Shown piece after piece: positions 15,044 through 50,491 of a stretch of 64,000 nt of DNA. Position numbers and translations under genes: made by a program. The DNA comes from Lachnospiraceae bacterium. Lineage in GTDB: Bacteria > Bacillota > Clostridia > Lachnospirales > Lachnospiraceae. The stretch lies in assembly GCA_024403455.1 (NCBI GenBank), contig JAKSRR010000002.1:1-64000 (forward strand), given 5' to 3'. The first letter of the stretch is position 1. Each line of letters begins with the position of its first letter. The notes below the pieces were generated by a model. That model saw only the letters and a list, made by a program, of their open reading frames with translations, made no database searches and was not told where the DNA came from.

Positions 15044-15060
15044 TGTTTTTTCCTCCAACC

Positions 15061-15189
15061 AAAAACAGTAGCCCGGATACCCAGGCACCCCTACGGCACA
15101 TGGAAAATCCATCTTAGTGCTGCTATGTTCCCATCCTGACACGATTCGAAGGCATCCATTGCGCAGGACCCGGGTCACGGACTACTGCA
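15061..15189 (-). ncRNA. ffs: SRP RNA (4.5S-like), ends approximate
   Basis: Signal recognition particle RNA, which with Ffh targets nascent membrane and secreted proteins. The universally conserved domain is readable on the minus strand at 15142-15113: GTCAGGATGGGAACATAGCA followed by GCACTAAG. It sits in a hairpin whose outer arms, ACCCGGGTCCTGC and GTAGGGGTGCCTGGGT, pair at both ends, as in small bacterial SRP RNAs. A run TGTTTTT ends the transcript at about 15061. The promoter lies directly upstream and the neighbour is tadA, the same order as in other Firmicutes. It falls inside a long open frame that could be mistaken for the SGNH N terminus. Confidence 0.9.
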
Positions 15190-15195
15190 CTAAAT

Positions 15196-15224
15196 ATTTT
15201 ACCCCATCCCCGAGTTTCTTGCAA
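15196..15224 (-). promoter_or_regulatory. promoter of SRP RNA gene
   Basis: On the minus strand TTGCAA (15224-15219) and TAAAAT (15201-15196) lie 17 bp apart. The predicted start near 15189 fits the 5' end of the SRP RNA. Confidence 0.65.
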
Positions 15225-15230
15225 ACAACT

Positions 15231-15330
15231 TTGGGGACGGTCCTTTTGGACAGAGAAGTGTCCCTCTGAGCACAGGAGTGTCCCTCTGAGCACAGGTGTG
15301 TCCCTCTGAGCACAGGAGTGTCCCTCTGAT
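15231..15330 (+). repeat. REP-like repeat with four tandem 20-bp modules
   Basis: Core GGGGACGGTCCTTTTG followed by four head-to-tail 20-bp units ending at 15269, 15289, 15309 and 15329. The unit is GCACAGGAGTGTCCCTCTGA; the third differs by one base and the first in its left half. It fills the gap between the SRP RNA promoter and the tadA stop codon. It is the longest tandem array of this family in the window. Confidence 0.9.
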
Positions 15331-15341
15331 GCAAAAATAGT

Positions 15342-15896
15342 TTATTGCGCCGTTTCCGTCTTCAATCGTTTTCGTAGTCCCTTAAAAAACTCTGTCAGCA
15401 TGTTGCTGCATTCTTCCTCTAAGATACCGCGGGTAACCTCTGCCTGGTGGTTAAACTTTGGTTCCTCCAATAAATTAAACAAGGAGCCTCCACAACCGGC
15501 CTTGGGATTCATACAGCCCATTACCACACGCGTGACTCTCGCCTGTATAATCGCACCGGCACACATCTGACATGGTTCCAACGTTACATATAGGGTGCAC
15601 TCTTCCAAACGCCAATCCCCTATTATCTTCCCAGCTTTCTTCATAGCAGTTATTTCTGCATGGGAAAGGGTGGACTTATCTGTATTCCTTCGATTATAGC
15701 CACGCCCAATGATTTTTCCTTCATATACAATAACGCAGCCAATGGGAACTTCTCCTAAAGCCGCTGCCTTTTTCGCCTGCTTAATGGCTTCCCTCATATA
15801 TTTCTCATCCAGGGCATGCTGGGCTATCGCCTCTGCCTCTAAACGTTTCCTTTTTTCTTCCTTTGCTATGGGACTTTTCATGATTGTTCCTTGCAC
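15342..15896 (-). CDS. tadA: tRNA(Arg) adenosine(34) deaminase
   Basis: TadA deaminates wobble adenosine 34 to inosine in tRNA-Arg(ACG). The zinc-dependent deaminase motifs are present: L-S-H-A-E-I with the catalytic glutamate, and E-P-C-Q-M-C-A-G-A with the two zinc cysteines. The 184-residue chain is about 20-25 residues longer at the N terminus than usual; the extra part is basic (K-R-K-R). A start at an internal Met near residue 6 or 34 cannot be excluded. It lies immediately upstream of the SRP RNA gene, as in other Firmicutes, with a repeat array in between. Confidence 0.94.
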   Translation of the reverse strand: MQGTIMKSPIAKEEKRKRLEAEAIAQHALDEKYMREAIKQAKKAAALGEVPIGCVIVYEGKIIGRGYNRRNTDKSTLSHAEITAMKKAGKIIGDWRLEECTLYVTLEPCQMCAGAIIQARVTRVVMGCMNPKAGCGGSLFNLLEEPKFNHQAEVTRGILEEECSNMLTEFFKGLRKRLKTETAQ

Positions 15897-15938
15897 TTTT
15901 CTGCTTAATATCGCTATGCCGTTTCCAAATCTTGATTT

Positions 15939-17006
15939 CTATGCTTCTCGCTCCTGCAAGAATCTCGCCACCATCATGCCAAGCTTTAATGTCATAGCAT
16001 CTTCAAACTTTCGAATGTCCAAGCCTGTATGCTTCTGCAATTTTTCCAAACGAAAAGTCAAAGTATTTCTGTGCATAAATAAATCTCTGGCCGTTTCTGA
16101 TATATTCAGGTTATTCGCAAAGAATCGTTCAATGAGGGACTGTTCTTCCTCGTCCAGATTGCATAATCTGTTTTCTCCGAATATTTCCTTCAAAAATAAA
16201 GCACATAAATCCTGTGGAAGTTCATAAATCAGTCTGCCGATTCCTAGACGACTGTAGGATGCGATTCTTCGATCCTCATAAAAGATCTTTGCCACCTCCA
16301 TAGCCATGTAGGCAGCCTTATAGGACTGATGCAGCATCTTTGTCAACGAAACGCTCATACCATAAGCAATGCGCACATCCGCGAACAGTTCCATATTTAA
16401 CATCGCCAAAGCTTCCTTTGCGAATTTCGCTAATTCCTTTTCCTCCTTTGCACCTCGCCCACAACGCAAATACGCAAGCGTATGCCCATCTAATGGGATC
16501 GCCAAATCCTTTTCCGCCTCTGGAGAGATATTCTTCAAGATTTCTCCGGCCTCCTCTGGGATATCCTCTGGAAAGCGGACCAAAAACACTGTACGAAGGG
16601 TATCGGCCTTTAATCCCTTTTCGGTTGCTTTACGAAGCAGCTGTTCTTCCGGTTCACCCGTTAACAGTTTTCTACAAATTCCCTCTATGCTACTATCCGG
16701 ATCCGCAGCTTTTGCAATATGCAAAATTCCCGACTTCGCCAGTCTTCCAAAAACTGCTGGTGTCTGGGTTGCAATCGTAAGTAAAACTGCCGATTCATCC
16801 CCCATGGGCATTCGTAAAAAATGGAACTCTTTTTGTAGTTTTTCCTCTTTTTCGCTATCATAAAATGCCTGTATTTTGTTTTCTTTAACTTCGCACTCGC
16901 TGGTTCCATATATGATTCTCCCCTGCCCATCGCAAAGCATATAGACAGCTCCCGTAATCCTACTTTGTTCTTCCAGATATTCTTTTACTTCTGCGGATAG
17001 TATCAT
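15939..17006 (-). CDS. CdaR/PucR-type helix-turn-helix regulator
   Basis: A 355-residue cytoplasmic regulator. The C-terminal about 60 residues match the PucR/CdaR-type HTH: N-L-N-I-S-E-T-A-R, then M-H-R-N-T-L-T-F-R-L-E-K-L, then the D-A-M-T-L-K-L-G-M end. The middle region (about 150-270) is the GGDEF-related CdaR domain with A-Y-G-M-S-V and Y-K-A-A-Y-M-A-M-E. The N-terminal about 110 residues look like a small sensory domain. Family members often control sugar-acid, purine or stress genes; the ligand here is unknown. The start overlaps the NrdG-like gene by four bases, so the two are co-translated. Confidence 0.82.
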   Translation of the reverse strand: MILSAEVKEYLEEQSRITGAVYMLCDGQGRIIYGTSECEVKENKIQAFYDSEKEEKLQKEFHFLRMPMGDESAVLLTIATQTPAVFGRLAKSGILHIAKAADPDSSIEGICRKLLTGEPEEQLLRKATEKGLKADTLRTVFLVRFPEDIPEEAGEILKNISPEAEKDLAIPLDGHTLAYLRCGRGAKEEKELAKFAKEALAMLNMELFADVRIAYGMSVSLTKMLHQSYKAAYMAMEVAKIFYEDRRIASYSRLGIGRLIYELPQDLCALFLKEIFGENRLCNLDEEEQSLIERFFANNLNISETARDLFMHRNTLTFRLEKLQKHTGLDIRKFEDAMTLKLGMMVARFLQEREA

Positions 17007-17701
17007 ATCTCACCTCGTAATCCCACCGAAGGAATGGATGGTTTTAATTCTTCTCTAAACTGTTCAAGTTCAGACAGCGTGAATGGCAAAAACTCTTTTT
17101 TCTTCCAAAGAACGCCGTCAGAATCTTTATAATTCTGCAAATAATATCGCTTTGCCCCTGTGAGCATCTGACCCAAATCTTCTATGTCTTCCACTGTATG
17201 AAGGCCTTTTACCAAGGTCGTTCTAAATTCGTAGTCCACACCACATTCCATAAGCATTGCAATACTTTTTGTGATTGTAAGAAGTTCACAATTTTCTTCA
17301 AAACCGCAAGCCGGTGCATATTTCATCCTACCTGCCTTTACATCCATGGCCACATAGTCAATCAGCCCCGCGTCATACAAATCCTGTACCACTTCTGGAT
17401 GACTTCCATTCGTATCTAACTTCACTAGATACCCCAGGCTTTTTAGTTTATAGCAAAACGTAGCCAAATCCTTTTGCAATGTAGGTTCTCCACCGGTAAT
17501 ACATACCCCTTCCAACACGCCTTTTCTCTTTGCCAGATATGATAAAACCTGCTGCTCCGGAATTCTTGCCTCTTTCCCAAGCACCATATTCGCATTCTGG
17601 CAGAATGGACAACGATAATTACAGCCCACCGTAAAAACAGTAGCTGCCACATGTTCTGGATAATCTAATAAAGTTGTTTGCTGAAATCCACCAATTTCCA
17701 T
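17003..17701 (-). CDS. radical SAM anaerobic NTP reductase activase (NrdG-like)
   Basis: A 232-residue radical-SAM protein of the anaerobic ribonucleoside-triphosphate reductase activating family (NrdG2-like). The iron-sulfur motif is the compact C-N-Y-R-C-P-F-C near residues 27-34, preceded by L-L-D-Y-P. C-I-T-G-G-E-P-T-L-Q around residues 68-77 is the SAM-binding motif. No NrdD gene is adjacent, so the partner enzyme is either elsewhere or a different glycyl-radical protein. It overlaps the downstream regulator gene by four bases. Its 5' end faces the divergent DUF3810 gene over only about 40 bp. Confidence 0.85.
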   Translation of the reverse strand: MEIGGFQQTTLLDYPEHVAATVFTVGCNYRCPFCQNANMVLGKEARIPEQQVLSYLAKRKGVLEGVCITGGEPTLQKDLATFCYKLKSLGYLVKLDTNGSHPEVVQDLYDAGLIDYVAMDVKAGRMKYAPACGFEENCELLTITKSIAMLMECGVDYEFRTTLVKGLHTVEDIEDLGQMLTGAKRYYLQNYKDSDGVLWKKKEFLPFTLSELEQFREELKPSIPSVGLRGEI

Positions 17702-17725
17702 AGTACCATTATACCATGGCTGGCA

Positions 17726-17740
17726 TGGTATAATATTTAT
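17726..17740 (+). promoter_or_regulatory. extended -10 promoter, probably giving a leaderless mRNA
   Basis: TGGTATAAT (17726-17734) is a consensus extended -10. Counting seven bases on from the hexamer, the predicted first transcribed base is the A of the ATG at 17741. No ribosome binding site lies in between. Confidence 0.6.
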
Positions 17741-18883
17741 ATGAAGAAGATTTCTACTTATTGGAGAATAATACTCATCTTGACTGGCGTCACCCTATTT
17801 TTTGGCGTGCTTTCTTTTATACCCTCTTTTTGTGACTGGTATACTTTACATGTTTATAAAAACGTTGCCGCTGCCTACGCACACCTTACGAACCCACTAC
17901 CTTTTCTCCTCGGCGAAATCCTATTTTATCTGGCAATTCTTTTTGTCACTGTGGTATTCGTATGCAGTCTGCTGCGCCTTCCTCTACGAAGGAAGGTTGG
18001 ATTCAAACGGTTTCATACTGGCCTGTCCAAATCCTTTCTTATGACAACATGCATCGTCCTTCTTTTATATATGTTACTTTGGCTTCTCCCCTTCCGAACG
18101 ACTCCCCTTACCTTCGGTGTAAGTCCCGAAAAGAAGTACACCTATGAAGACCTTACCGAACTTACAATCCATGTGTCAGAGCAAATTAATCAAATCACTG
18201 AAAACATCCCAAGGGACTCCGATGGTCACATCATTGTTCCAGACGATGCCATGGAATCCTTAAAAAGTGGTATGCAATCCCTGCAGGATGAATTCCCTCT
18301 CTATAATTCATTTTATCCATCTGCTAAATTCGCCCTAGCCTCTGACTTTTTGGAATGGAGCGAAATCGGCGGTTTTACAATTCCTTACACCGCAGAAATC
18401 TGCCTAAATCGTTATGAAAAGCCCTATAAACTCTATTACTACATGCTCTATGCTCACGAGGAAGCACACCATCTTGGTTATTTTCGTGAAAATGAGGGCG
18501 TCTTCTTCGGTATCCTCAGCTGTCTCCGAAGTGACTGTGAGCTTGTACAGCTCTGCGGCTACTATGAAGCCTATCATTATTTAAAGAAGCAGGCTTACCT
18601 GGATTGTCTGGAGGGATATGTGTCCAAGGAGATGTATACCGATTTTAAAAGCAAAACAAGCCTCATCCCTCTGACGCAACAGGATCAGGACTATTTCTAT
18701 GCATTAAGAACATCCCTCTATGAGGAAAATGTTAATACCTCTATGGAAAATATGTTTAAAGAATCTACAGAAAAAGTCGCCGAAGTTGGTTGGGAAACCC
18801 AGGACAAGATTTTGAAAGAGAACAATTACGATGGCGTTGTGCTGCTTCTACTGCGATACTTCCATCGGGGACGGTCCTTTTGA
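17741..18883 (+). CDS. DUF3810 membrane protein with zinc-protease-like motif
   Basis: A 380-residue protein of the DUF3810 family. Three N-terminal membrane helices lie at about residues 8-30, 55-80 and 100-120. A large C-terminal domain contains Y-A-H-E-E-A-H-H-L-G-Y, an HExxH-type motif suggesting a metallopeptidase, although activity is not established for the family. The start at 17741 is chosen because an extended -10 ends seven bases before it; a longer frame from 17678 would run over the divergent gene. The last codons (G-R-S-F and stop) come from a REP-like repeat, so the native C terminus was probably altered by its insertion. Confidence 0.82.
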   Translation: MKKISTYWRIILILTGVTLFFGVLSFIPSFCDWYTLHVYKNVAAAYAHLTNPLPFLLGEILFYLAILFVTVVFVCSLLRLPLRRKVGFKRFHTGLSKSFLMTTCIVLLLYMLLWLLPFRTTPLTFGVSPEKKYTYEDLTELTIHVSEQINQITENIPRDSDGHIIVPDDAMESLKSGMQSLQDEFPLYNSFYPSAKFALASDFLEWSEIGGFTIPYTAEICLNRYEKPYKLYYYMLYAHEEAHHLGYFRENEGVFFGILSCLRSDCELVQLCGYYEAYHYLKKQAYLDCLEGYVSKEMYTDFKSKTSLIPLTQQDQDYFYALRTSLYEENVNTSMENMFKESTEKVAEVGWETQDKILKENNYDGVVLLLLRYFHRGRSF

Positions 18884-18945
18884 GCATAGGAGTGTCACTT
18901 TGAATGATGGAGAGTCCCTCTGAACACGCCGGAGTATCACTTTGA
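18867..18945 (+). repeat. REP-like repeat overlapping DUF3810 stop codon
   Basis: Core GGGGACGGTCCTTTTG plus three degenerate modules of 20-22 bp (ending GTGTCACTTTGA, GAGTCCCTCTGA, GTATCACTTTGA). The TGA stop of the DUF3810 gene (18881-18883) is inside it. Confidence 0.85.
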
Positions 18946-19003
18946 ACGTTTGAAGATCATCCTGTCGTATAGACTGCCACAAAAGTTCATAACATCATCA
19001 CAT

Positions 19004-19037
19004 AAAAAACCCCATCCTTACGGATGGGGTCTTTATT
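19004..19037. terminator. bidirectional terminator
   Basis: CCCCATCC/GGATGGGG stem with a TTAC loop. The minus strand runs into TTTTTTATG; the plus strand runs into CTTTATTATC. It serves the ATPase gene on the minus strand and probably DUF3810 on the plus strand. Confidence 0.85.
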
Positions 19038-19054
19038 ATCATTCAAACTATAAA

Positions 19055-20167
19055 CTAGTTGGTAATGATGGTTTCAGTTTCCTTATCGAATACGTGAATC
19101 TTGTCTACATCGAATGCAAACTTAACGGTATCGCCAGGACGAGCAGTAGTTCTAGGATCAACTCGAGCGGTGATTGCGAAATCTTCAAGGTTGAAGTATA
19201 AGAATACTTCTGCACCAAGAAGCTCGTATACCTTAATGGTAGCTTCGAAGGTGGAAAGAGGAGAAGCCTCAACCATCATTTCGCTATCATATACGTCTTC
19301 AGGACGGATACCGAAGGTAACGGTCTTTCCGTCATAACCGCCATCGATCAGCTTCTTGGACTTTTCAGGAGGCAGAGGGATAGCTCTGTCAGCGATCTTA
19401 AGGTAAGCAGTTTCACCCTGTACTTCGCAAACAGCATCAAGGAAGTTCATCTGAGGAGATCCCATGAAACCTGCAACGAAGAGGTTCTGTGGCTTCTCGT
19501 AAAGGTTCTGAGGAGTATCAACCTGCTGGATAACACCATCCTTCATAACTACGATTCTTGTACCAAGTGTCATAGCTTCTGTCTGGTCATGTGTAACGTA
19601 GATGATGGTTGTACCTAATCTCTGGTGTAACTTAGCGATCTCAATTCTCATCTGTACACGGAGCTTAGCATCAAGGTTTGATAAAGGCTCGTCCATAAGG
19701 AATACCTTAGGATTACGAACGATAGCACGACCCATAGCAACACGCTGACGCTGACCACCGGAAAGAGCCTTAGGCTTTCTCTCTAAAAGGGGTACAAGGT
19801 CAAGGATCTTTGCAGCTTCCATAACCATCTTATCGATTTCATCCTTGGGAACTTTACGAAGTTTAAGACCGAAAGCCATGTTGTCCTTTACGGTCATGTG
19901 AGGATACAGAGCGTAGTTCTGGAATACCATCGCGATATCACGATCCTTAGGCTCTACATCGTTAACTAATCTGTCACCGATTCTAAGTTCACCGGAGGAG
20001 ATATCCTCAAGACCTGCGATCATACGAAGGGTGGTGGACTTACCGCATCCAGAAGGTCCTACGAAGATGATGAACTCCTGGTCAGCGATTTCAAGGTTGA
20101 AGTTCTTAACTGCTTCGAAGCCGTTAGGATAAACCTTGCAAATGTTCTTTAAACTTAAGCTTGCCAT
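19055..20167 (-). CDS. MsmX/UgpC-type sugar ABC transporter ATPase
   Basis: A 370-residue ATPase of the MalK/MsmX/UgpC group, which energises carbohydrate ABC importers; some members serve many transporters. Walker A is G-P-S-G-C-G-K-S-T near residues 38-46, Q-loop M-V-F-Q-N-Y-A, signature L-S-G-G-Q-R-Q-R, Walker B V-F-L-M-D-E-P-L-S-N, H-loop Y-V-T-H-D. A C-terminal TOBE-like regulatory domain starts at about residue 240. AAGGAG precedes the ATG. It is isolated from permease genes, which fits a shared ATPase that could also serve the solute-binding lipoprotein near 10 kb; this pairing is inference. Confidence 0.92.
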   Translation of the reverse strand: MASLSLKNICKVYPNGFEAVKNFNLEIADQEFIIFVGPSGCGKSTTLRMIAGLEDISSGELRIGDRLVNDVEPKDRDIAMVFQNYALYPHMTVKDNMAFGLKLRKVPKDEIDKMVMEAAKILDLVPLLERKPKALSGGQRQRVAMGRAIVRNPKVFLMDEPLSNLDAKLRVQMRIEIAKLHQRLGTTIIYVTHDQTEAMTLGTRIVVMKDGVIQQVDTPQNLYEKPQNLFVAGFMGSPQMNFLDAVCEVQGETAYLKIADRAIPLPPEKSKKLIDGGYDGKTVTFGIRPEDVYDSEMMVEASPLSTFEATIKVYELLGAEVFLYFNLEDFAITARVDPRTTARPGDTVKFAFDVDKIHVFDKETETIITN

Positions 20168-20526
20168 TTTATTTCTCCTTTTATTTTATTGAAAGAGAGT
20201 AACCCTCTTTACACACTATGGAATATTTTACTAAATCCCATTCGCAAATACCATCGTCAAGGTGCCAAACTTTCCCCCCGATTGTTGGCAATATGACGAA
20301 CTCATGGGGACGGTCCTTTTGCGTACAGAAGTGTCACTTTGGGTCGAAGAGTGTCCCTATGAACTGGGGAGTGTCCCTATGATACTTTTGGTGTTAAATA
20401 TCTTTACTTTCTCCAATTTATCATTAAAATAAATATATCTTAATTTTGTAGTATTTCGAGTTTCTGTTGTCTAAACTGCAGGATTTTCTTTTTTATTCCC
20501 ATGCTTTTTTCATTCACGGAGGGCTT
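20168..20526. other. intergenic stretch between ATPase and RAYT gene
   Basis: The left part (20168-20305) is the upstream region of the minus-strand ATPase gene, with the small inverted repeat AAAGAGGGTTACTCTCTTT; I found no convincing promoter pair. The repeat copy at 20306-20382 follows. The rest, up to the transposase start, is AT-rich without a recognisable signal. Confidence 0.5.
20306..20382 (+). repeat. REP-like repeat, left flank of RAYT
   Basis: Core GGGGACGGTCCTTTTG plus three modules (GTGTCACTTTGG, GAGTGTCCCTATGA, GAGTGTCCCTATGA). It has the opposite orientation to the copy beyond the transposase gene. Confidence 0.88.
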
Positions 20527-21291
20527 ATGTCTCGAGTAGCAAGAAAACTATCTTCCACAAATGTTTATCATATTGTAATACGAGGTATCGATCGGCAACG
20601 ACTGTTCCTCGAAAATAACGATTACCAAAAATACCTGGACTTGTTAAATTATTATAAATCCGAGTGTGGTTTTCACCTTTATGCATACTGCCTCATGAGT
20701 AACCATGTTCACCTACTCATTTGTACTTTGGGTATGGAACTACATGTGATTTTTCGACGTCTGGGTACGGCCTATGCCGAATGGTTTAACATGAAATACA
20801 ATCGCGTTGGTTCCTTACAACAAGGCCGTTTCTATAGCGAGCCCGTTGAAACAACTTCCTATCTCCACAATGTTGTGAGATATATACATTTTAATCCTGC
20901 AAAGGCAGGGATAGAATCTTTCCCCGGAGAAAAGTACCCATGGAGCAGTTATGATTCTTATTTCCAGAGCCCTGGGTTTGTAGATACTCAAACCATTTTA
21001 GAATCCATGGGCGGTATAAAGCACTTCAAAGAATATCATTCTTCACCATGTAACGATATTTGTCTGGACATTGACACGATCAAACGACGCATTCCAGATG
21101 ATGTTGCTGTCGAAATCATAAATACTACCTGTCACTGTCCTAACATCGTTGCTTTTCAGGAACTCCCACTGCTAACGCAGGCGGCCAACCTTCTTTTACT
21201 CCACAAAAAAGGCCTGTCAGAACGACAACTTAATCGTCTAACAGGCACTCCTCTAGGATTTATTAAGAAAACTATTGCAAAAAGCAAATAA
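20527..21291 (+). CDS. REP-associated tyrosine transposase (RAYT, Y1/HUH family)
   Basis: A 254-residue single-strand DNA transposase of the IS200-like Y1 superfamily, in the RAYT branch. The metal-binding HUH motif is N-H-V-H-L-L (His60 and His62). The probable nucleophile is Tyr119 in R-Y-I-H-F-N-P, a RAYT hallmark, followed by Y-P-W-S-S-Y near residues 140-146. A C-terminal extension of about 90 residues ends in a basic helix. The ATG at 20527 is preceded by GGAGGG; the frame is open to a TTG at 20467, but that has no ribosome site. All key residues appear intact, so it may be active. Its flanking repeats match the family scattered through the window. Confidence 0.9.
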   Translation: MSRVARKLSSTNVYHIVIRGIDRQRLFLENNDYQKYLDLLNYYKSECGFHLYAYCLMSNHVHLLICTLGMELHVIFRRLGTAYAEWFNMKYNRVGSLQQGRFYSEPVETTSYLHNVVRYIHFNPAKAGIESFPGEKYPWSSYDSYFQSPGFVDTQTILESMGGIKHFKEYHSSPCNDICLDIDTIKRRIPDDVAVEIINTTCHCPNIVAFQELPLLTQAANLLLLHKKGLSERQLNRLTGTPLGFIKKTIAKSK

Positions 21292-21336
21292 ACACCAAAG
21301 GATTTTCAAGCAACACACTGTGTTGAATTTCCCTTT

Positions 21337-23712
21337 TTATCTGTGCTGTTTCAAAGGGACACTCCTCTGCTCAAAAGGACCGTCCCCAATGAGCCGTCGC
21401 CTCTTGCTGGATACGATATACAACGGCACTGCTATTACCGCTATGACAGCACTTTGAAGGAGTGCAAATCCTATCGGGTATCTTGCCCAATTTAGGAAAT
21501 AGCAGAAAAATGGTTCTATAAGAATATTGACAGATACGGCAACACAGGCAAAACCGATATTCCACATTTTGCTGTAACTTGCATCATTCCTTATCCTGCT
21601 TCCTGCTCCAACAATAAGGAATATAATGCCAGCCAGAGCAACACCATATAGCACATGCCAGAATCTGTAATCATTAGTGGCCAACATCGCTATCCAAACT
21701 CCTACTCCATAAAAGCAAAGAAGAGATGCAACATTAGCAGCTACAAATCCTTTTCGGCGTCCTATTCTTCTTCCTTCTTTCACTGATGTTGCATTCCACA
21801 CAATGATGCCAATCAAGTAGCACAGAATCCCAACAAAGCCAAAGAACCGGATGATTACTGCCATAAGCCTACTAAATCTCCAATAGGATAATGCACTTCC
21901 TAATGAAATCATGAATATCGCAAAACCAATATTTATGAGGGCATGACAGGTTTTTCTTTTCTGTCTTCGCACAAATCCTATGAAAACAAGTAGGATGCTT
22001 AATATAAGAAATGGCCATACTGGCAGCCTCTCCCACATCCTCGATAATGTCGTGTAAACACCGTAATCAAAAAGGAGACAAGCTGTCGCTATATTCAAAG
22101 GAATAAAATATTTCTTATTTCGCTGTGGATGCACAAGCTGCCCTTGTGTGGTGCTATTCTTTCTCCAGAAGCATCCCACAAACAGAACGGGAATGGCTGC
22201 CGTAATTAATTCTACATAAGGTGTAACAAAAATATACCATAATAACCAGTACGGAAAATAACCAAGAGAAAGCACGAGAAATGCAAATCCCACATTCCAA
22301 AGTGCTATATATTTTTTTCCAATTTTACGGTTATGAGCGCCAATACCTACCAGAATAAATCCCAGTATCGCTGCCACACCAATGATTCCTAATAATGAGC
22401 CAACTCCTTGACCTGCGCCCTCCACAAAGAAGGGTGAAAACGCCATACCAAGCAGTACCACCGCCGTATTAATCAGTCTGTATTTTGCTGCGTGCTTTGT
22501 GGTTCCTTTTGCTGCTGCCTCCATAGGCTGCACTGGATATCCTGTCATGGGCATACTCATATTTCCCCCATGGTTTCCCACAAAAGGAACGCTTCCCCTG
22601 TAAGCAGCCTGCGCACCCGCCGCCATATTTCTGTTCTGCGGTGTATTCATATTATTTACAGACATCGCTGCATTACTGCGCGAAGAAGCTGCAGTGTTTT
22701 CTGATGCATTCTCTGCCGCAGAATGATTTAATATCTTTGTTCCTTTGGAAAGACGAATCTCTTTAACGTCTGTTCTTCCAAGACCTTCGGGGAACACTGC
22801 TACAGTATTCGAAACAGTTTCCTTTACGCTTTTCTCTTTTGCATTTAAAAGAGCACTTCTAAATGCTCGCATAGTCTGAAAACGATTATTGGGCTGCACC
22901 GCCATCGCCATAAGAATGACCGTTTCCAAATCTTCGCTAATAGCCACCCCTAGCTGTCTAGGTGGCACCAATTCATCCTCATCCATTCGGTCAATAGAGT
23001 CCGGCGGACGCTTTCCCGTTAATGCCACGTAAAAACAAGCACCGACCGTATAAACGTCTGTATAAGGGCCCTGTTTTCCTCTTCTGGAATACTGCTCCTT
23101 AGGCGCATATCCATGCTTCAGAATAACATCCAGACTTCGACTTTTATCCCCTAGACTATATCTTGCGGCGCCGAAGTCCAGCAGTTTTATTCTGCCATCT
23201 CTTGTAATATAAATATTGTCAGGAGTTACATCCCTGTGCACAATTCCTTGATTATGAACCTGTTCAAGAGCCTCTATAACCGGAAGTAGAATACGCTCTG
23301 CCTCTTCATAAGAAATAATTCCGCCTCGCTGCTTCAGATAAGCATCAAAACTGGTTCCTTCAATAAACTCCATTACAAAGTAGGCTGTATCATTTTCTTC
23401 AAAAAAGCTCTGGATATTGACTACCCCACTGACATCACTAAACTGTGCCAGTGTCTCCGCCTCCTGAATGAAACAGGTTTTACCATAATCAAAATAATCT
23501 TTCTTCTCACCAGAAAAAGAGGTAACGGTCGTCCCGGTTCTCGTCGCCAGAGAATCCGGGAAAAATTCTTTAATCGCTACTTCTTCCCCTGTAATATAAT
23601 TTCTTGCCTTATAGGTAATACCAAAACCACCCTGGCCAAGGACTTTATCAATAACATATTTCCCCGCCAATACCGTATTAATTGGTAAGGCTAGAGGGTA
23701 CTTTTCTTCCAT
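21337..23712 (-). CDS. membrane Ser/Thr protein kinase with repeat-built membrane domain
   Basis: A 791-residue kinase. Kinase domain about 18-290: glycine loop L-G-Q-G-G-F-G (25-31), Lys48, catalytic H-R-D (159-161), Asp179 of DFG. All catalytic residues are present, so it should be active. A Ser/Asn/Met-rich linker (about 325-405) follows. From about 411 come six repeats of about 60 residues, each beginning with an N-x-G-F-A-like hydrophobic motif (Asn415, 473, 540, 594, 660, 718) and giving roughly two membrane helices. The last about 16 residues (from Gly776) are translated from a REP-like repeat, so the original C terminus is lost or extended. Near twin of the kinase at 25.4 kb. Confidence 0.9.
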   Translation of the reverse strand: MEEKYPLALPINTVLAGKYVIDKVLGQGGFGITYKARNYITGEEVAIKEFFPDSLATRTGTTVTSFSGEKKDYFDYGKTCFIQEAETLAQFSDVSGVVNIQSFFEENDTAYFVMEFIEGTSFDAYLKQRGGIISYEEAERILLPVIEALEQVHNQGIVHRDVTPDNIYITRDGRIKLLDFGAARYSLGDKSRSLDVILKHGYAPKEQYSRRGKQGPYTDVYTVGACFYVALTGKRPPDSIDRMDEDELVPPRQLGVAISEDLETVILMAMAVQPNNRFQTMRAFRSALLNAKEKSVKETVSNTVAVFPEGLGRTDVKEIRLSKGTKILNHSAAENASENTAASSRSNAAMSVNNMNTPQNRNMAAGAQAAYRGSVPFVGNHGGNMSMPMTGYPVQPMEAAAKGTTKHAAKYRLINTAVVLLGMAFSPFFVEGAGQGVGSLLGIIGVAAILGFILVGIGAHNRKIGKKYIALWNVGFAFLVLSLGYFPYWLLWYIFVTPYVELITAAIPVLFVGCFWRKNSTTQGQLVHPQRNKKYFIPLNIATACLLFDYGVYTTLSRMWERLPVWPFLILSILLVFIGFVRRQKRKTCHALINIGFAIFMISLGSALSYWRFSRLMAVIIRFFGFVGILCYLIGIIVWNATSVKEGRRIGRRKGFVAANVASLLCFYGVGVWIAMLATNDYRFWHVLYGVALAGIIFLIVGAGSRIRNDASYSKMWNIGFACVAVSVNILIEPFFCYFLNWARYPIGFALLQSAVIAVIAVPLYIVSSKRRRLIGDGPFEQRSVPLKQHR
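21351..21389 (-). repeat. REP-like repeat, right flank of RAYT, inside kinase gene end
   Basis: Read on the minus strand: core GGGGACGGTCCTTTTG then one module ending GAGTGTCCCTTTGA. It is inverted relative to the copy at 20306-20382 and lies within the last codons of the kinase gene. Confidence 0.88.
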
Positions 23713-23827
23713 GAGACTGTCCTTCTCTTCTTGTATTATTATTTTTTAATTTTACCATATCGTAGAAAAATGATTGCATGTATTTCTCAAACATTACATT
23801 CCAAAACAACACGCATGTTTTCTTCGT

Positions 23828-23862
23828 CAAAAAGAGACAGGCGAACCTGTCTCTTCATGTTA
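23828..23862 (-). terminator. terminator of lipoprotein gene
   Basis: On the minus strand AAGAGACAGG and CCTGTCTCTT pair around TTCG and continue into TTTTTGACG. It separates the lipoprotein gene from the following kinase gene. Confidence 0.85.
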
Positions 23863-23931
23863 TACCAATAATTTCATTTTTGGGATTGCATCATGCTTTG
23901 CACGATGTATTCCATTACTTCTTTAATTACA

Positions 23932-25275
23932 TTACCATCTTACATAATATGTATACTTGTTGCCATCAATTTCAAATTCAAGAGTCACTCTGTCTTCACT
24001 CCATTTAGTAGACTCGGGAACCTCTGCCAAAAGGTGATACATACGTGTGTCTAATGGCACCAATAAATCTGAATGACCATAGTTAATTGAAGTTCTAGCA
24101 TTATTTTCTTTATAAATATTCACTTCATATTCTTTTCCACCCACTTTTACCACTGCATTTATCTTATCTAATGCGTTCGTATTGCTCTTAAAATAACTAT
24201 CAATCAAAAACACAACATCAACACAAGTCATACCATCTTTTGCCGAATAGTGTCCACTAGTTTTACTTGTATCTTTTGTCGCCCATATTTCTTTTTCGAT
24301 TTGAGACTTTTCTATCGAAAAATCAAAAAATTCAGTAATATACTTCTGCCCCTTTGCAACAGTTCCTGGTTCTGAAATCTCTCCTCTCTCCTCATCTATT
24401 GCTTTTCCATTATCAAATAATACTATGGCGTACTCCTGACCATTATCAACTTCCTCAAAATGAGCGACCAAACTTCCATTATTTTTATCGACTTTTGTCG
24501 GCAGTTCTAGAAGCCAATGATAATAGTAAGTATTTCCCACTTTGTTAACATCTTCTTCATGTATCAAAAAATCACTATGATCATCCGTTTCCACTCTTAT
24601 CGGTTTATAAATGTCAGATGAATAGTAATCATGATTTGCAAAAAACTTATACTTGTCCTGGTATACAACGCCCTCTTCGTAAAAACAGTTATTTAATTTA
24701 TAGTATTTAGTACCATCGCTAAGTAATTCCGTTGGCTCACCTTTAAAAGTTACACTAAAAAAAATATCCAGCATATACTCTTCACTACCTTTATGTTCAT
24801 CCCAAAACATACTGTCGGTAGATATATATATCGGTTGCAGATGCACCCCTCCATCATTCTCTTCGTGAGGCCACTCATCTCCCTCTTCTTGAACTTCCTT
24901 CTCTTCCTCCTCCGTGAACTTTGATGGTTTTATTGTATACTCCTCATCATTATAAAATTTATAGGACAGAATGGTTAAGTCACAATTAGATGCACAAATG
25001 GTCTCTCCAAAATCAACGTAGATTGTCTCCCCTGTGTTCTCCGGAATAGCATCCAATTCCCCCCTTACTTTCGTTTCTTCCTCTTCTCGTTCACCTTCAA
25101 TAGGTTCGACAACCGCCTCATCCTCCACAACAGGTTCTTTAACTTCCTGCTCTATCTCCTTCGAATCCGATGTTTCAGTTTCTCCGTCCCAAGCCGCCTT
25201 ACTGCATGCTGCCAGCGCACTCACACATAATACAGCTGCAAGCACAGAAGCAAGTACTCTCTTCTTCATTCCCAT
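23932..25275 (-). CDS. lipoprotein of unknown function between two kinases
   Basis: A 447-residue exported protein I do not recognise. Basic N terminus, hydrophobic helix and lipobox L-A-A-C with Cys24 as anchor, then an acidic Glu/Val-rich linker (about 30-75). The rest is a large globular region rich in Tyr, Asp and Lys with alternating beta-type segments and no enzyme motif I can name. It lies between two membrane kinases on the same strand, with its own terminator before the second kinase. A role as extracellular partner or ligand reader for those kinases is possible but only inferred from position. Confidence 0.75.
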   Translation of the reverse strand: MGMKKRVLASVLAAVLCVSALAACSKAAWDGETETSDSKEIEQEVKEPVVEDEAVVEPIEGEREEEETKVRGELDAIPENTGETIYVDFGETICASNCDLTILSYKFYNDEEYTIKPSKFTEEEEKEVQEEGDEWPHEENDGGVHLQPIYISTDSMFWDEHKGSEEYMLDIFFSVTFKGEPTELLSDGTKYYKLNNCFYEEGVVYQDKYKFFANHDYYSSDIYKPIRVETDDHSDFLIHEEDVNKVGNTYYYHWLLELPTKVDKNNGSLVAHFEEVDNGQEYAIVLFDNGKAIDEERGEISEPGTVAKGQKYITEFFDFSIEKSQIEKEIWATKDTSKTSGHYSAKDGMTCVDVVFLIDSYFKSNTNALDKINAVVKVGGKEYEVNIYKENNARTSINYGHSDLLVPLDTRMYHLLAEVPESTKWSEDRVTLEFEIDGNKYTYYVRW

Positions 25276-25377
25276 CTTCTCCTTAAAATAGCAATTTTAT
25301 AATTTCTGTCAGTTTACCTCTCGCTCAGAAGAAATAATCCACACAGTAACTATCATATCATCCCAAACGTACTATCT

Positions 25378-26760
25378 CTATACATTTTTCTTTCTTCCTC
25401 GTACTATATGCATGATTAAGCACACAATGGCCGCAATCAAACAGGCAACTACTAGGTATGTACTATGATATCCGGCAGTTCCAATCAAAATAATCGATAA
25501 CATAATACTTGCTGCCGCAAATCCTGCATTTAAAAGAAATGCAAACTTTCGTCCTTTTGCTCGCATATTAAATCCAATAATTAATAACGGAATGAATACC
25601 ACCGCCAATATCGGCGCAATAAATTCTAATGCATACACACTTGAGCGTCTCATTACAACATCACCAAGAAGATAAATCACAAAAAACATTCCATAGGTTA
25701 ATGCTGGACTGCTTAACCCAATACTTGCATTAAGCAGGCCATACTTTTTCTTCTCTACATTTACCGGTTCTGTTTCCTGCTGAGGCTGTGTCTTTTCTTT
25801 CTTTACTAAAATAATTTCTTTAACATCAGTTTTTCCTAAGCCTTCCGGCAACACCTGATTCTGAACTTCACTAGTAGCCATGGGATCATCCTTTAAGAGC
25901 GCATCCCTAAATTCTCCCATCGATTGGAAACGATCCGCAGGCTGAATCGCTAGCGCCTTAAGGATAGCATTTTCCTGCGCCTGCCCTATCTCGACTCCCA
26001 ATTCACTAAGGGGCTTCAGCTCATCCTCATCCATTCGATCAATAGAATCCGGAGGACGTTTTCCTGTAAGTGCCACATTAAAACATGCGCCAACCGAATA
26101 TACATCTGTATAGGGTCCCTGTTTTCCTCTTCGAGAATACTGTTCTTTCGGAGCATAACCATGTTTTAAGATTACATCCAAACTCTTACTTTTGTCTCCC
26201 AAACTGTATCTAGCTGCTCCAAAATCTAACAGCTTAATATCACCACTTTTGGTGATATAGATATTATCTGGTGTCACATCACGGTGTACAATACCCTCCG
26301 CATGTACTTGAGCCAAGGCTTCCATCACCGGCACCAAAATATCTCTTGCCTTCGCATACGGAACCTTTCCACCATTTTCCTTTAAGAGAACATCAAAGCT
26401 TGTTCCTTCAATGAATTCCATTACGAAGTAGGCTGTATCATTTTCTTCAAAAAAGCTATGCACATTAACAACGCCTTTTACATCGCTAAACTGTGCCAAA
26501 GTTTCTGCCTCTTCCAAAAAGCAACTCTTACCATACTCAAAATTTTCCTTTCGCTCTCCCGAAAAGGAATTTACCGTAGTCCCTGTTCTTGCTGCTAGTG
26601 AATCCGGAAAATACTCCTTTATCGCAACAGGCTCACCCGTTTCATAATTCTTAGCTTTGTAAGTAATACCAAATCCGCCTTGTCCAAGCACCTTCTCAAT
26701 TACATATTTACCAGCTAATACTGTGTTTACCGGCAGCGCCAGTGGAAATTTTTCATTCAT
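25378..26760 (-). CDS. membrane Ser/Thr protein kinase
   Basis: A 460-residue kinase whose first about 290 residues closely match the kinase at 21.3-23.7 kb, with identical placement of glycine loop (25-31), Lys48, H-R-D at 159-161 and Asp179. Both share V-A-I-K-E-(F/Y)-F-P-D-S-L-A and the unusual catalytic loop H-R-D-V-T-P-D-N. A conserved P-E-G-L-G-(K/R)-T-D-V-K-E-I segment follows the kinase domain in both. The membrane part (about 347-455) has about four helices and only two copies of the Asn-containing repeat found six times in the twin. No PASTA or other extracellular sensor domain is present. It looks like a duplication that diverged by repeat number. Confidence 0.9.
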   Translation of the reverse strand: MNEKFPLALPVNTVLAGKYVIEKVLGQGGFGITYKAKNYETGEPVAIKEYFPDSLAARTGTTVNSFSGERKENFEYGKSCFLEEAETLAQFSDVKGVVNVHSFFEENDTAYFVMEFIEGTSFDVLLKENGGKVPYAKARDILVPVMEALAQVHAEGIVHRDVTPDNIYITKSGDIKLLDFGAARYSLGDKSKSLDVILKHGYAPKEQYSRRGKQGPYTDVYSVGACFNVALTGKRPPDSIDRMDEDELKPLSELGVEIGQAQENAILKALAIQPADRFQSMGEFRDALLKDDPMATSEVQNQVLPEGLGKTDVKEIILVKKEKTQPQQETEPVNVEKKKYGLLNASIGLSSPALTYGMFFVIYLLGDVVMRRSSVYALEFIAPILAVVFIPLLIIGFNMRAKGRKFAFLLNAGFAAASIMLSIILIGTAGYHSTYLVVACLIAAIVCLIMHIVRGRKKNV

Positions 26761-26875
26761 AATAACTCCTATTACCTTTTCATGTTTTTTGAATCAAAAC
26801 CCTTTGTCAAACACTTATGAGCAAACGCGCTGCGTTCTAAATACTTTTGGTCTCTGTATCATTATATTAACCAAA

Positions 26876-27826
26876 TTATTCTCCCAGGCACAGTCCTGTA
26901 GTAGGCTCTAGGCCTAGCGCAATGTTCATGCACTCTACAGCCGCTGCAGATGCACCCTTTCCAAGATTATCGAAACGCACATTCACAAGGATTCTCTCCT
27001 CATTACCTGTAATAAAGATTTCAAGGTCATCTCGTCCAGAGAGGGTATTTCCTGACAAGAATGAACTAGAAGCTTCTTCAGCGCCAAATTCTCTCACCTT
27101 AATGAAGGGTTCTCCCTTAAAGTAATCAGCAAAATAATCTCTCATCTCGGAGGGAGTCATCTTCTTCGTCAGTAAATCCGCATATAAGGGAACCGTAACT
27201 AACATGCCGCTGTAATAATCCGCCACAATGGGTGAAAACAAGGGGTCTCTGGTAAGACCACATACCATCTTCATTTCCTTTAAGTGTTTATGCTTCTGGC
27301 TCAACGCATAAGCCCTAGGAGCATCTAATTCTGCCTCCCTATCCTCACCCTCATACTGAGCAATCATCTTCTTTCCACCGCCAGAGTACCCGGTTAATGA
27401 AAAGGCAGATACAGGATAGTCTGCCGGCATGATGCCGCCCTTTACTAAAGGATATACCGCTGTAATGAATCCAGTTGCATGGCAGCCAGGATTTGCAATA
27501 CGATTGCAGGTTGCTACGGCTTCTCTGTGTTCCTTAGAAAGTTCCGGATATCCATATGCCCAGCCTTCCGCGGTACGATGTGCCGTAGATGCATCAATAA
27601 TCTTTGTATGATCGTTTGTGCATAAGGAAGCCGCCTCCATTGCCGCTGCATCTGGTAAGCATAAGAAAGTAATATCAGATGCATTAATCAGCCTTGCTCG
27701 TTCAGCAGGATCCTTTCTAAGTTCATCTGAGATAGTAAGAAGCTCGATATCCTTCCGACCTTCCATTCTTTCCATAATACGAAGGCCTGTTGTACCTTCT
27801 CGTCCATCAATAAATACTTTTGTCAT
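26876..27826 (-). CDS. argC: N-acetyl-gamma-glutamyl-phosphate reductase
   Basis: ArgC reduces N-acetylglutamyl phosphate to the semialdehyde in arginine synthesis, with NADPH. The 316-residue length and the N terminus V-F-I-D-G-R-E-G-T-T-G place it in the shorter type 2 form. The catalytic cysteine lies in A-N-P-G-C-H-A-T-G-F, and S-L-T-G-Y-S-G-G-G-K-K follows. No other arg gene is in the window, so it is transcribed alone or with unrelated genes. The start has a clear Met before T-K-V-F-I-D. Confidence 0.95.
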   Translation of the reverse strand: MTKVFIDGREGTTGLRIMERMEGRKDIELLTISDELRKDPAERARLINASDITFLCLPDAAAMEAASLCTNDHTKIIDASTAHRTAEGWAYGYPELSKEHREAVATCNRIANPGCHATGFITAVYPLVKGGIMPADYPVSAFSLTGYSGGGKKMIAQYEGEDREAELDAPRAYALSQKHKHLKEMKMVCGLTRDPLFSPIVADYYSGMLVTVPLYADLLTKKMTPSEMRDYFADYFKGEPFIKVREFGAEEASSSFLSGNTLSGRDDLEIFITGNEERILVNVRFDNLGKGASAAAVECMNIALGLEPTTGLCLGE

Positions 27827-27958
27827 AATCTCTTATCCTCGCTATTTTCAGGACTTCCTAAAGGCAACTATACTACACCTTAATAGGGACTGTCCCCTTA
27901 ATTCTTTTCAAAATTCAATACTGTAACAGCCATTTGCGACTAATACTGCATCCGCGTG

Positions 27959-28058
27959 TCAAAGGGACACTCCTCTGCTCGGGTCAACTCTGTTGACCCT
28001 AAGGACACGTCCCCGAAATCAAAGGGACACTCCTTATCCCAAAAGGACCGTCCCCGAA
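27959..28058 (-). repeat. two REP-like units in tandem with internal hairpin
   Basis: Read on the minus strand, unit one is GGGGACGGTCCTTTTG plus a GAGTGTCCCTTTGA module. Unit two is a diverged GGGGACGTGTCCTTAG core, an inserted hairpin GGGTCAAC/GTTGACCC and another module. It starts directly after the exporter gene stop codon at 28061. A stray related GGGACTGTCCCC lies at 27886. Confidence 0.88.
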
Positions 28059-28060
28059 GT

Positions 28061-29992
28061 CTAGTGGAAGGTACCAGTGTATAAGTTATAGTATCTTCCC
28101 TTCTGTGCCATGAGTTCTTCATGGTTACCGCGCTCAATGATACGTCCCTGCTCTAATACCATAATGCAGTCCGCATTTTGGATGGTAGACAAACGGTGCG
28201 CAATAACGAAGGTGGTACGTCCTTTCATGATTTCATCCATACCGGCTTGGACTAACTTCTCTGTACGTGTATCAATAGAGGAGGTTGCCTCGTCCAAAAT
28301 CAATGCCGGGGGATCTGCAATGGCTGCTCTAGCAATGGATAATAGCTGTCTCTGTCCCTGGGAAAGAGAACCGCCATCTCCCTTAATCTCCGTATCATAG
28401 CCATCAGGAAGCTTGCGAATGAAACTGTCCGCATTGGCAAGTTTCGCTGCCGCATAAACTTCTTCATCCGTAGCATCCAATCGTCCATAGCGGATGTTCT
28501 CCTTTATGGTTCCCGAGAATAGTTCAACATCCTGCAGCACCATACCCAGACTTCTTCGAAGATCATCCTTCTTTATCTTATTGATATTGATGCCATCATA
28601 ACGAATCTTTCCATCCTGGATGTCATAGTAACGGTTAATCAAATTCGTAATGGTTGTTTTTCCTGCACCGGTAGAACCAACAAATGCAATCTTCTGCCCT
28701 GGTGTCGCATACAAATCTATGTTATGAAGAACGGTCTTCTCCGGGATATATCCAAAATCTACATCATTGAATACCACATCACCCTTCAGTTCCACATAGG
28801 TTGTAGTACCCTCATCCTTATGATAGTGCTTCCATGCCCACAAACCAGTACGCTCCGCTGACTCCGTAAGCACACCATCAACATACTTCGCATTTACTAA
28901 GGTCACATATCCATCATCAACTTCCGGTGTTTCATCAATCAGTTTAAAAATTCTGTCCGCACCTGCAAGCGCCATAGCAATACTGTTAAACTGCTGGCTA
29001 ATCTGTCCAATAGGATTATTAAAACTCTTATTCATCTGCAGAAAACTTGCTAATGCACCTAAAGTAAATCCTCCAACACCATTTACCGCTAAGGCTGCAC
29101 CCACCATTACGCAGAGAACAAAACTTAAATTACCAAGCTGTCCATTTAACGGTCCCATCACACCGCCAAGACGATTTGCTTTTTCTGCACAGAAGCATAG
29201 ATCCTCATTTAATTCATTGAACTGTGCCATACTTTCTTCTTCATGGCAGAATACCTTTACAACCTTCTGGCCTTCCATCATCTCTTCAATATGGCCATTT
29301 ACTTTACCCAAATTCCTCTGCTGCTCCGCAAAATACCGACCAGAACGGGACATGATACGACCACTGGTAAAGAACATAATGGTAACCATACCTACCGAGA
29401 TTCCCGCTAACGGAATACTGAGTCTAATCATGTTCACTAGAACACCCGTCACCGTAACAATACTTTCCAAAAGGCTTGGGAAAGACTGTGATATCATCTG
29501 CCTGAGAGCATCCACATCATTGGTATACATAGACATGATGTCACCATGACTGTGGGTGTCAAAGTAACGAAGGGGAAGTCGTTCCATCTTCGCAAACATT
29601 TCGTTTCGGAGATTTCGAAGCGTTCCTTGTCCCACGTAAATCATGAGTTTTCCATAGAGGAAGGTCACAAAAATACCAACAAGGAAAATCACTCCCATCT
29701 GAATGACGGCATGTAAGAATGGTGAAAAATCTGCCACACCACCTTCCGCTGTCACATTTGCCATTGGAATAATGTAATCATCAATCATGGACATAATGAA
29801 CATCATTCCCTTCAGCTGCACCAATACACCGATGACAACAGAAGCGATCACGATAATAATATGGATCGGATAATGGCGCATTACCATTCCAAACACCCTG
29901 GCTAAAACCTTCCAGGGATGCTCAATCTTTGGTCTGTCGTTTTTCTTCTCATCCATGGGTTCCCCTGGCTTTGTCTGCTTTTCTTCTGCCAT
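28061..29992 (-). CDS. heterodimeric ABC exporter subunit, catalytic half
   Basis: A 643-residue fused membrane-ATPase protein, six membrane helices (about 35-340) then an ATPase domain (about 405-640). Walker A is G-S-T-G-A-G-K-T-T, signature L-S-Q-G-Q-R-Q-L, and Walker B ends L-D-E-A-T-S-S-I-D with the catalytic glutamate intact. Partner of the gene just upstream, with which it overlaps by one base (TAATG). Together they resemble BmrCD/LmrCD or TM287/288-type exporters for drugs, lipids or peptides; the substrate is unknown. An extra segment of about 40 residues between the membrane and ATPase parts is typical of this subunit type. Confidence 0.92.
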   Translation of the reverse strand: MAEEKQTKPGEPMDEKKNDRPKIEHPWKVLARVFGMVMRHYPIHIIIVIASVVIGVLVQLKGMMFIMSMIDDYIIPMANVTAEGGVADFSPFLHAVIQMGVIFLVGIFVTFLYGKLMIYVGQGTLRNLRNEMFAKMERLPLRYFDTHSHGDIMSMYTNDVDALRQMISQSFPSLLESIVTVTGVLVNMIRLSIPLAGISVGMVTIMFFTSGRIMSRSGRYFAEQQRNLGKVNGHIEEMMEGQKVVKVFCHEEESMAQFNELNEDLCFCAEKANRLGGVMGPLNGQLGNLSFVLCVMVGAALAVNGVGGFTLGALASFLQMNKSFNNPIGQISQQFNSIAMALAGADRIFKLIDETPEVDDGYVTLVNAKYVDGVLTESAERTGLWAWKHYHKDEGTTTYVELKGDVVFNDVDFGYIPEKTVLHNIDLYATPGQKIAFVGSTGAGKTTITNLINRYYDIQDGKIRYDGININKIKKDDLRRSLGMVLQDVELFSGTIKENIRYGRLDATDEEVYAAAKLANADSFIRKLPDGYDTEIKGDGGSLSQGQRQLLSIARAAIADPPALILDEATSSIDTRTEKLVQAGMDEIMKGRTTFVIAHRLSTIQNADCIMVLEQGRIIERGNHEELMAQKGRYYNLYTGTFH

Positions 29993-35147: not shown

Positions 35148-35280
35148 GGGGACGGTCCTTTTGAGCACTGGTATGTCCTCATGACATGAGGAGTGTCCCT
35201 CTGATTTTTATCATTTTCTCAAAATTCACAGGGACACTCCTCTACCCGGGTCAACTTTGTTGACCCTAAGGACCGTCCCC
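35148..35280. repeat. inverted pair of REP-like repeats (REPIN-like)
   Basis: Two complete repeats face each other. A plus-strand core GGGGACGGTCCTTTTG with modules starts at 35148, and a minus-strand copy ends with GGACCGTCCCC at 35280. The minus copy contains the hairpin GGGTCAAC/GTTGACCC, also seen in the array near 28.0 kb. About 20 bp of AT-rich sequence separates the halves. Confidence 0.88.
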
Positions 35281-39483: not shown

Positions 39484-39520
39484 GGGGACGGTCCTTTTGG
39501 GATAAGGAGTGTCCCTTTGG
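39484..39520 (+). repeat. REP-like repeat after mntP
   Basis: Single unit: core GGGGACGGTCCTTTTG and one module GAGTGTCCCTTTGG, starting three bases after the mntP stop codon. Its first about 35 bases equal unit one of the array near 28.0 kb. Confidence 0.85.
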
Positions 39521-39521
39521 A

Positions 39522-40891: not shown

Positions 40892-40948
40892 TCAGAGGGA
40901 CACTCCTTGAATCAGAGGGCACTCCTATACCCAAAAGGACCGTCCCCA
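40892..40948 (-). repeat. REP-like repeat after the split membrane protein genes
   Basis: On the minus strand: core GGGGACGGTCCTTTTG, a module with one base missing (GAGTGCCCTCTGA), then GAGTGTCCCTCTGA. It begins eight bases after the stop of the upstream gene. Confidence 0.85.
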
Positions 40949-50282: not shown

Positions 50283-50353
50283 GTTTTTACCCCATACCTT
50301 TGTTTATTATTTTTTATTTAATTCGCATATTTTTTCGTAAATTTCCACAATAA

Positions 50354-50383
50354 ATTATACTCTACGAGCCAAAAACTTGTCAA
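50354..50383 (-). promoter_or_regulatory. promoter of essC operon
   Basis: On the minus strand TTGACA (50383-50378) and TATAAT (50359-50354) lie 18 bp apart. The -35 overlaps the -35 of the divergent promoter. Confidence 0.8.
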
Positions 50384-50404: not shown

Positions 50405-50491
50405 TTATTTATTGGGCTATTTTTACGGCCCATACGAGACTGTTTACCTCATCGAAGTCTTCGCTTATTGAAAGCTACAAGGGAGAGTTTT

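Follow-up and report, generated by a model that had tools for sequence, protein, structure and literature searches.

The closest described systems and the locus in the window

In the published grouping of RAYTs (transposases associated with repetitive extragenic palindromic, REP, sequences), TnpA-Y1 subclass 2.1, which equals RAYT group 1, has an NHVH or NH[YF]H motif, a Y motif of the form YIELNP or Y[IV]HLNP, an SS pair, a helix-turn-helix (HTH) tail and a median length of 238 amino acids (aa) (PMC6006769; statements on this paper, PMC3733652 and PMC8266576 refer to the parts used here). It is entered there as lacking REPs: none came to light in automatic searches for hairpins with a GT[AG]G foot or in manual searches. 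The subclass is regarded as the probable equivalent of the TIRYTs of Di Nocera (PMC6006769). The terminal inverted repeats of TIRtrons/TIRYTs share the motif GGGGWSAS (Di Nocera et al. 2013, PMC3733652). Here we describe a RAYT gene and its repeats in 64,000 nt of DNA from a Lachnospiraceae bacterium (assembly GCA_024403455.1, contig JAKSRR010000002.1, positions 1 to 64,000), hereafter the window. Its source genome, G000, is 2.23 Mb and 82% complete. Positions 20306-21387 probably form an autonomous RAYT element accompanied by a family of non-autonomous repeats that the RAYT would move. The element consists of three features.

20306..20381, forward strand: left terminal repeat, a 16-nt head (GGGGACGGTCCTTTTG) followed by three 20-bp modules
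20527..21291, forward strand: RAYT gene, an HUH (Y1) single-strand transposase of 254 aa with a helical C-terminal tail
21350..21387, reverse strand: right terminal repeat, inverted, head plus one module, overlapping the 3' end of a 791-aa kinase-like open reading frame (ORF)

The RAYT ORF starts with ATG at 20527 and stops at 21289-21291, and an alternative TTG start is possible at 20467. A reading of the sequence alone had proposed a Y1 transposase with intact HUH and R-Y-I-H-F-N-P motifs between oppositely oriented repeats, and alignment with relatives bears this out. The HUH motif is N59-H60-V61-H62, the Y motif is R118-Y119-I-H-F-N-P124, S140-S141 is invariant across the aligned relatives, and the flanking 16-mers lie at 20306-20321 (+) and 21372-21387 (-). 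The match to PF01797 scores 47 bits (cut-off 23). NCBIfam NF047646 (REP_Tyr_transpos, equivalog) was not reached, with 55.2 bits at a cut-off of 80, and no HTH family was detected in the window RAYT; HTH_23 is present in 6 of 18 aligned members. An AlphaFold model (pLDDT 89.6, pTM 0.70) has a helical C-terminal tail, and its best match among the solved structures searched is 4er8, the REP-bound E. coli RAYT (E 9.6e-7, TM 0.77 of target). By sequence the protein is distant from this gammaproteobacterial type (4er8, 13 bits, E 0.57). The Clostridia setting holds, since the nearest named relatives are Lachnospiraceae among the best 80 of 564 stretches.

The subclass 2.1/TIRYT group fits the protein best. 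It agrees with subclass 2.1 in HUH motif, spacing and length, and its Y motif is intermediate: YIHFNP in the window RAYT and YIHQNP, YIHLNP and others in relatives, of which YIHQNP matches the motif of 2.6. NHVH is also given for class 3 and permitted in 2.4, 2.6 and 2.7. Median HUH-to-Y spacings are 58-67 in most subclasses and larger in 2.3, 2.4 and 2.6 (110, 88 and 82); the distance of 57-59 residues from H60/H62 to Y119 speaks against these three and does not single out 2.1 (PMC6006769). NHVH is shared with subclass 2.1; a Y motif of the Y-I-H-x-N-P kind, the conserved SS and, in several relatives, an HTH-type tail resemble it without deciding the match. The difference is that the subclass was published without REPs, whereas hairpins are found here at many related RAYTs (PMC6006769).

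Like TIRtrons/TIRYTs, the locus has a RAYT-like gene between inverted repeats with a common G-rich motif, and some TIRtron/TIRYT repeat families are likewise moderately abundant, with dimers, clusters and partly self-complementary tracts. Unlike them, the motif here is GGGGACGG, with A changed to G at position 7 of GGGGWSAS (7/8 positions), and those parts of the paper describe no loop-tag rule in which stems differ by lineage (PMC3733652). Firmicutes or Clostrid are not mentioned in the same parts of its text, the species-listing figure 9 aside. The canonical E. coli REP/RAYT system (group 2) shares the mismatched-stem hairpin, the inverted pairs and the protein fold, but the locus here has no GTAG 5' foot, carries its tag in a stem or loop and encodes a longer protein (Corneloup et al. 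2021, PMC8266576; PDB 4er8). No report of clostridial RAYT hairpins was found in the surveyed part of the open-access literature. The window family also has tandem arrays and 20-bp modules, which sets it apart from the REPINs (inverted REP pairs) of Pseudomonas. In the account of Bertels and Rainey from 2011, inverted pairs are reportedly the likely unit of spread in Pseudomonas, with a tag and a RAYT group that differ from those here. We place the locus in the RAYT/REP kind as a variant, with a loop-tag rule for a RAYT group lacking a known hairpin partner and with a transposition chemistry that we infer. The proposed REP/RAYT identity stands insofar as a RAYT is found with its own repeat, in many copies and REPIN-like inverted pairs; it does not extend to the E. 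coli type, as the protein fits subclass 2.1/TIRYT and the repeats have no GTAG tag.

The repeat family and its modular hairpin

The 16-mer GGGGACGGTCCTTTTG has eight exact copies in the window, including the six further ones that had been noted, and one copy with two mismatches (35265-35280). The chance expectation is a mean of 0.31 and a maximum of 2 in 100 shuffles. The whole of G000 holds 20 exact copies and none of the reversed control. A profile built from 19 aligned copies gave 44 matches in G000 at E <=0.1; 35 matches score at least 31 bits, 19 of which are the training copies of the model. The profile count comes to about 33 copies in G000. The repeat unit is the 16-nt head followed by a 20-nt module near NNCANAGGAGTGTCCCTNTG. 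The variable number of modules noted earlier is real: with a strict pattern, which gives false counts for worn modules, 16 of 28 intact-head copies have one, six have two to four and six have none. An inverted partner lies within 140 bp of 7/28 intact-head copies, and these pairs agree with the description of a REPIN (inverted, within about 100 bp, one long hairpin). None of the 33 listed G000 flanks ends in GTAG or GTGG, and in this respect the repeats depart from canonical REPs.

In DNA folding, three unit sequences form a stem (-8.3 to -9.4 kcal/mol, z -2.6 to -4.6) in which a G-G mismatch interrupts the pairing of GGGACG and TCCT with AGGA and TGTCCC, and an 80-nt inverted pair on contig C6 of G000 reaches -34.3 kcal/mol (z -11). 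A sub-type with an additional palindrome (GGGTCAAC-GTTGACCC) in the loop occurs at six places, two in the window (27958-28014, 35225-35280) and the others on contigs C2, C3, C23 and C32; one copy has a compensatory change (GGGGCAAC...GTTGCCCC) and one is decayed. The loop position of this insert is consistent with the outer stem of the window-type hairpin. The remaining copies in the window are as follows.

15233..15328, forward strand: dispersed copy, head plus four 20-bp modules
18867..18904, forward strand: dispersed copy at the 3' end of a 401-aa ORF
27958..28014, reverse strand: adjoining copy of the sub-type with the extra loop palindrome
28018..28055, reverse strand: dispersed copy
35148..35185, forward strand: left half of an inverted pair, with an RBS-like (ribosome-binding site) AAGGAG beside it on the opposite strand
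35225..35280, reverse strand: right half of the inverted pair, loop-palindrome sub-type
39484..39521, forward strand: dispersed copy
40910..40947, reverse strand: dispersed copy

ORFs were compared with copies within 18000-24000, and copies elsewhere were judged from flanking sequence. The stop codon TGA of the 401-aa ORF is supplied by the copy at 18867 (18867-18883), and the 791-aa kinase-like ORF crosses the right-hand copy, which provides its final residues, and stops at 21337 (overlap 21337-21387).

In a tree, the window RAYT and the RAYTs of loci L077 and L078 form one clade (100/99, with the bootstrap not settled). The genome of L078 (G117) has 15 matches to the repeat pattern, and the copies read there have the window layout, one with a second 20-bp module. 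The genome of L077 has one match. In this clade the tag makes up the 5' side of a hairpin stem with a mismatch (GGGACG-G-TCCT ... AGGA-G-TGTCCC), and some copies repeat the 3' part as 20-bp modules. Judged mainly from two genomes, this modular form with the tag in the stem looks like a variant of the clade.

A G-rich tag beside related RAYTs

A search of 116 genomes including G000, in which a hit was a match at E <=1e-10, gave 33 positive genomes, and a contig scan added further RAYT loci (the best 80 of 564 stretches; mostly Bacillota, some Bacteroidota, Spirochaetota and others). The pooled flank set comprised 109 loci with the window's own, of which 103 were usable for a 6-mer count. When upstream and inverted downstream flanks were counted without a prior, GGGACG ranked first (63/103) and GGGGAC second (59/103). 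GGGGAC was found in direct order at 23/103 loci. Inverted pairs of GGGACG occurred at 61/99 loci within 500 bp and, at increasing distance, at 3/96, 2/90, 0/58 and 0/57. With one locus per cluster of RAYTs of >60% identity, the tag was present, inverted, on both sides in 53/83 and on at least one side in 73/83.

The tag is often enclosed by complementary arms. Stems of at least 6 bp surround it at 40% of 203 sites (87 loci, window excluded), compared with 2.6% (maximum 5.6%) when arms were swapped between loci. Counting one site per side and cluster, stems of at least 5 bp were found at 28/62 upstream and 34/62 downstream sites, where swapped arms gave 8% and 7% on average and at most 20% and 18%. 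The loop consensus between the arms is GGGGACGGTTCTTTTG, and TGAGGACA-C-GGGGACGGTCCTTC-TGTCCTCA and TAAAGTAT-GGGGACGGTTCTT-ATACTTTA are examples. Two loop-tag hairpins that were folded have z of -2.2 and -4.2. The tag GGGGAC(G) is in a hairpin loop in about half of the tagged clusters, and the stem is lineage-specific. In five of nine plasmid/phage relatives (L377, L378, L379, L380 and L383), GGGGTCAG, which fits GGGGWSAS exactly, lies near the gene. It is inside a 5-bp loop-tag stem in L379, as is AGGGACGG in L382, and neither form was found near the gene in L381, L384 and L385.

These tags may point to a wider rule, which we offer tentatively and regard as somewhat doubtful: subclass 2.1, which is among the largest RAYT groups, may as a rule be paired with a loop-tagged hairpin that has a GGGG[AT]C[AG]G loop and a lineage-specific stem. 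The 3' arm would be a guide inside the element and the 5' arm the target side, so that insertion sites would be chosen by base pairing. The L078 lineage, with its CTCCTT target pairing with the internal AAGGAG, would home to ribosome-binding sites, and in other lineages the target arm would have become part of the element. This large group was published without a hairpin partner and with its role open. A conserved tag with swappable stems provides a ready substrate for biochemistry and would account for the failure of searches based on a GTAG foot, and the many RAYT/repeat pairs allow co-evolution to be followed in Bacillota of the gut and rumen.

Distribution, insertion and alternative explanations

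A window-type profile gave nothing above 30.5 bits in 34 congeners. The family was thus found in G000 alone of 35 congeneric genomes, and its spread therefore looks recent. The 16-mer by itself was rejected as proof that families match, because congeners mostly hold it in other repeats: at 26 loci the context is mostly TGAGGACAC-GGGGACGGTCCTTTTG-TCCTCA or has other stems. The TGAGGAC type, the repeat family of a congener, has 36 copies in G017, 28 each in G029 and G019, 26 in G025 and 20 in G024. The matching RAYT is whole in the first four and cut by a contig end in G024. Elsewhere there are 10 copies in G001, 4 each in G032 and G031, 2 in G030 and 1 in G021, and none in the other 25 genomes, G000 among them. 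In the wider set, at least 10 copies of GGGGACGGTYCT are present in 14/33 RAYT-positive and 6/83 RAYT-negative genomes (no hit at E <=1e-10; Fisher p 2.4e-5, kinship not corrected). The suggestion that copy number follows the RAYT lineage is supported within the genus, with 20-36 copies in five RAYT genomes against 0-10 in the other 30, but it is not a strict rule, as the six RAYT-negative genomes hold 12 to 154 tag copies.

Sites of insertion were compared among congeners. A REPIN of the TGAGGAC type in G025 is absent at the orthologous site in the sister species G002, G029, G017 and G001, with both flanks aligned, and is best read as a derived insertion. Of the six stretches compared, two were not counted: in G030 the alignment covers the right side alone, and in G013 the right flank has no match. 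G025 and G017 share a second pair that G029 lacks, but TGAGGAC-like letters persist at the G029 site, which may have lost the pair by deletion. One tandem array differs in length, with two units in G025 and three in G019. The polymorphic insertion sites that had been anticipated were thus found for the family of a congener, and no empty site was found for the window's own. An imperfect 26-bp direct duplication flanks the G025 REPIN (L219 11370-11495, contig C36); it is unexpected for IS200/IS605-type chemistry and was not seen at the other polymorphic pair.

A pyrimidine directly precedes the element in 32/33 copies read in G000 and in 17/17 read in G117. In G117, 8/17 repeats stand directly 3' of a CTCCTT-like sequence (1.6 expected; maximum 6 in 1000 shuffles). 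CTCCTT is the antisense of the Shine-Dalgarno sequence, and these repeats carry AAGGAG or a near form inside (L333, L345, L354, L360, L361 and L078). A CTCCTT target rule holds only for G117 and was rejected for G000 (3/33 against 1.9 expected). For the family of the congener, a target-arm model was rejected as well, since TGAGGAC is missing from the empty site of the G025 REPIN; in this family the arm travelled with the element.

Our data suggest that the window RAYT is likely to move the repeats. IS200/IS605 enzymes bind folded single strands at the replication fork. The RAYT probably binds its repeat folded as a single strand, would cut beside the G-rich tag through Tyr119 and would move single repeats or inverted pairs to new sites beside a pyrimidine; the strand that moves and the present-day activity of the window RAYT are both presumed. 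Several observations weigh against this explanation. G001 has its 10 TGAGGAC-type copies with no matching RAYT seen, 19/33 RAYT-positive genomes have fewer than 10 tag copies, and five tag-rich genomes have no Y1 (PF01797) match (G032, 154 copies; G006, 81; G042, 55; G021, 19; G030, 12). G027, with 35 tag copies, has only Y1 pieces, one with a stop; a Y1 family search of 13 genomes found pieces in three RAYT-negative genomes (G010, G016 and G027). Tags more than 800 bp from a RAYT carry stems of at least 6 bp at 19/73 sites (26%), which we read as probable dispersed copies. The left copy (20306) breaks two pairs of the window-type hairpin, the 61-nt stretch of L078 folds like shuffles (z -1.15; 25/200 as good), and covariation sought in the window-type hairpin gave 0/10 pairs changed on both sides, where the 5' arm is invariant partly because copies were picked by their exact head. 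Empty sites for the window family were sought in the genus with two queries, which returned single conserved genes and no shared neighbourhood. The tag-rich genomes without a Y1 match indicate that repeats can stay abundant beyond the lifetime of a detectable RAYT, or independently of one. Each of three causes could account for them: a RAYT lost once the repeats had spread, a gap in the draft assembly, or an enzyme helping in trans. Loop-tag hairpins are numerous in G006, G032 and G042; G032 has at least three types of stem, and G042 at least two.

The abundance of repeats in genomes without a Y1 match would suit a decaying relic, in which the RAYT once spread the repeat and is now inactive or domesticated, and the copies are kept because they serve the host at gene ends (in mRNA stability or termination). 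This is a possible explanation that we think rather unlikely. The single RAYT match in G000, GSLQQ where most aligned relatives have GHLFQ, the variation of the copies in their 3' part and the two ORFs that end in repeats are consistent with it; the intact HUH and Tyr, the exact head in 20 copies and the apparently recent spread in one of 35 genomes argue against it. A terminator scan of 15000-29000 found 16 candidates with 9.9 expected, two of them inside repeats (28040-28024 and 20365-20379) with 3 G-C pairs each, which lends a terminator role weak support. That the repeats are mobilised in trans by another enzyme and the RAYT is a mere passenger flanked by them is improbable. The five tag-rich genomes lacking PF01797 would fit such help, but loss of the RAYT or draft-assembly gaps would yield the same exceptions, the tag is on both sides of the RAYT in 53/83 clusters and rare further off, and the stem type follows the RAYT lineage. 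A further alternative is an ordinary IS200/IS605 insertion sequence with subterminal hairpins, which has the same Y1 fold and would also have repeats at both ends. It is very improbable here, as the Y motif ends in NP rather than in the Q of the IS class (PMC6006769), the NCBIfam IS200 model gives 13.7 bits at a cut-off of 55, one transposase stands against tens of repeat copies, and the top relative is 53% identical among the matches listed, where near records may be absent. Carriage by plasmids or phages was likewise rejected, with matches in 16/72,556 plasmid and 1/50,697 phage records, all below 60% identity.

The repeats also cluster near RAYT genes, in the window at 15233-40947. Of the non-flanking site clusters, 6/26 in G000 (0.54 expected), 6/17 in G025, 3/13 in G019 and 3/24 in G017 lie within 25 kb of the RAYT; for these counts and their p-values, clusters were grouped by hand, the radius was picked after seeing the data, the genomes are related, and G024 and G029 were left out. 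A second cluster on contig C4 of G000 (49006-53711) spans 4.7 kb, in which each of five successive gaps between different genes holds an inverted pair.

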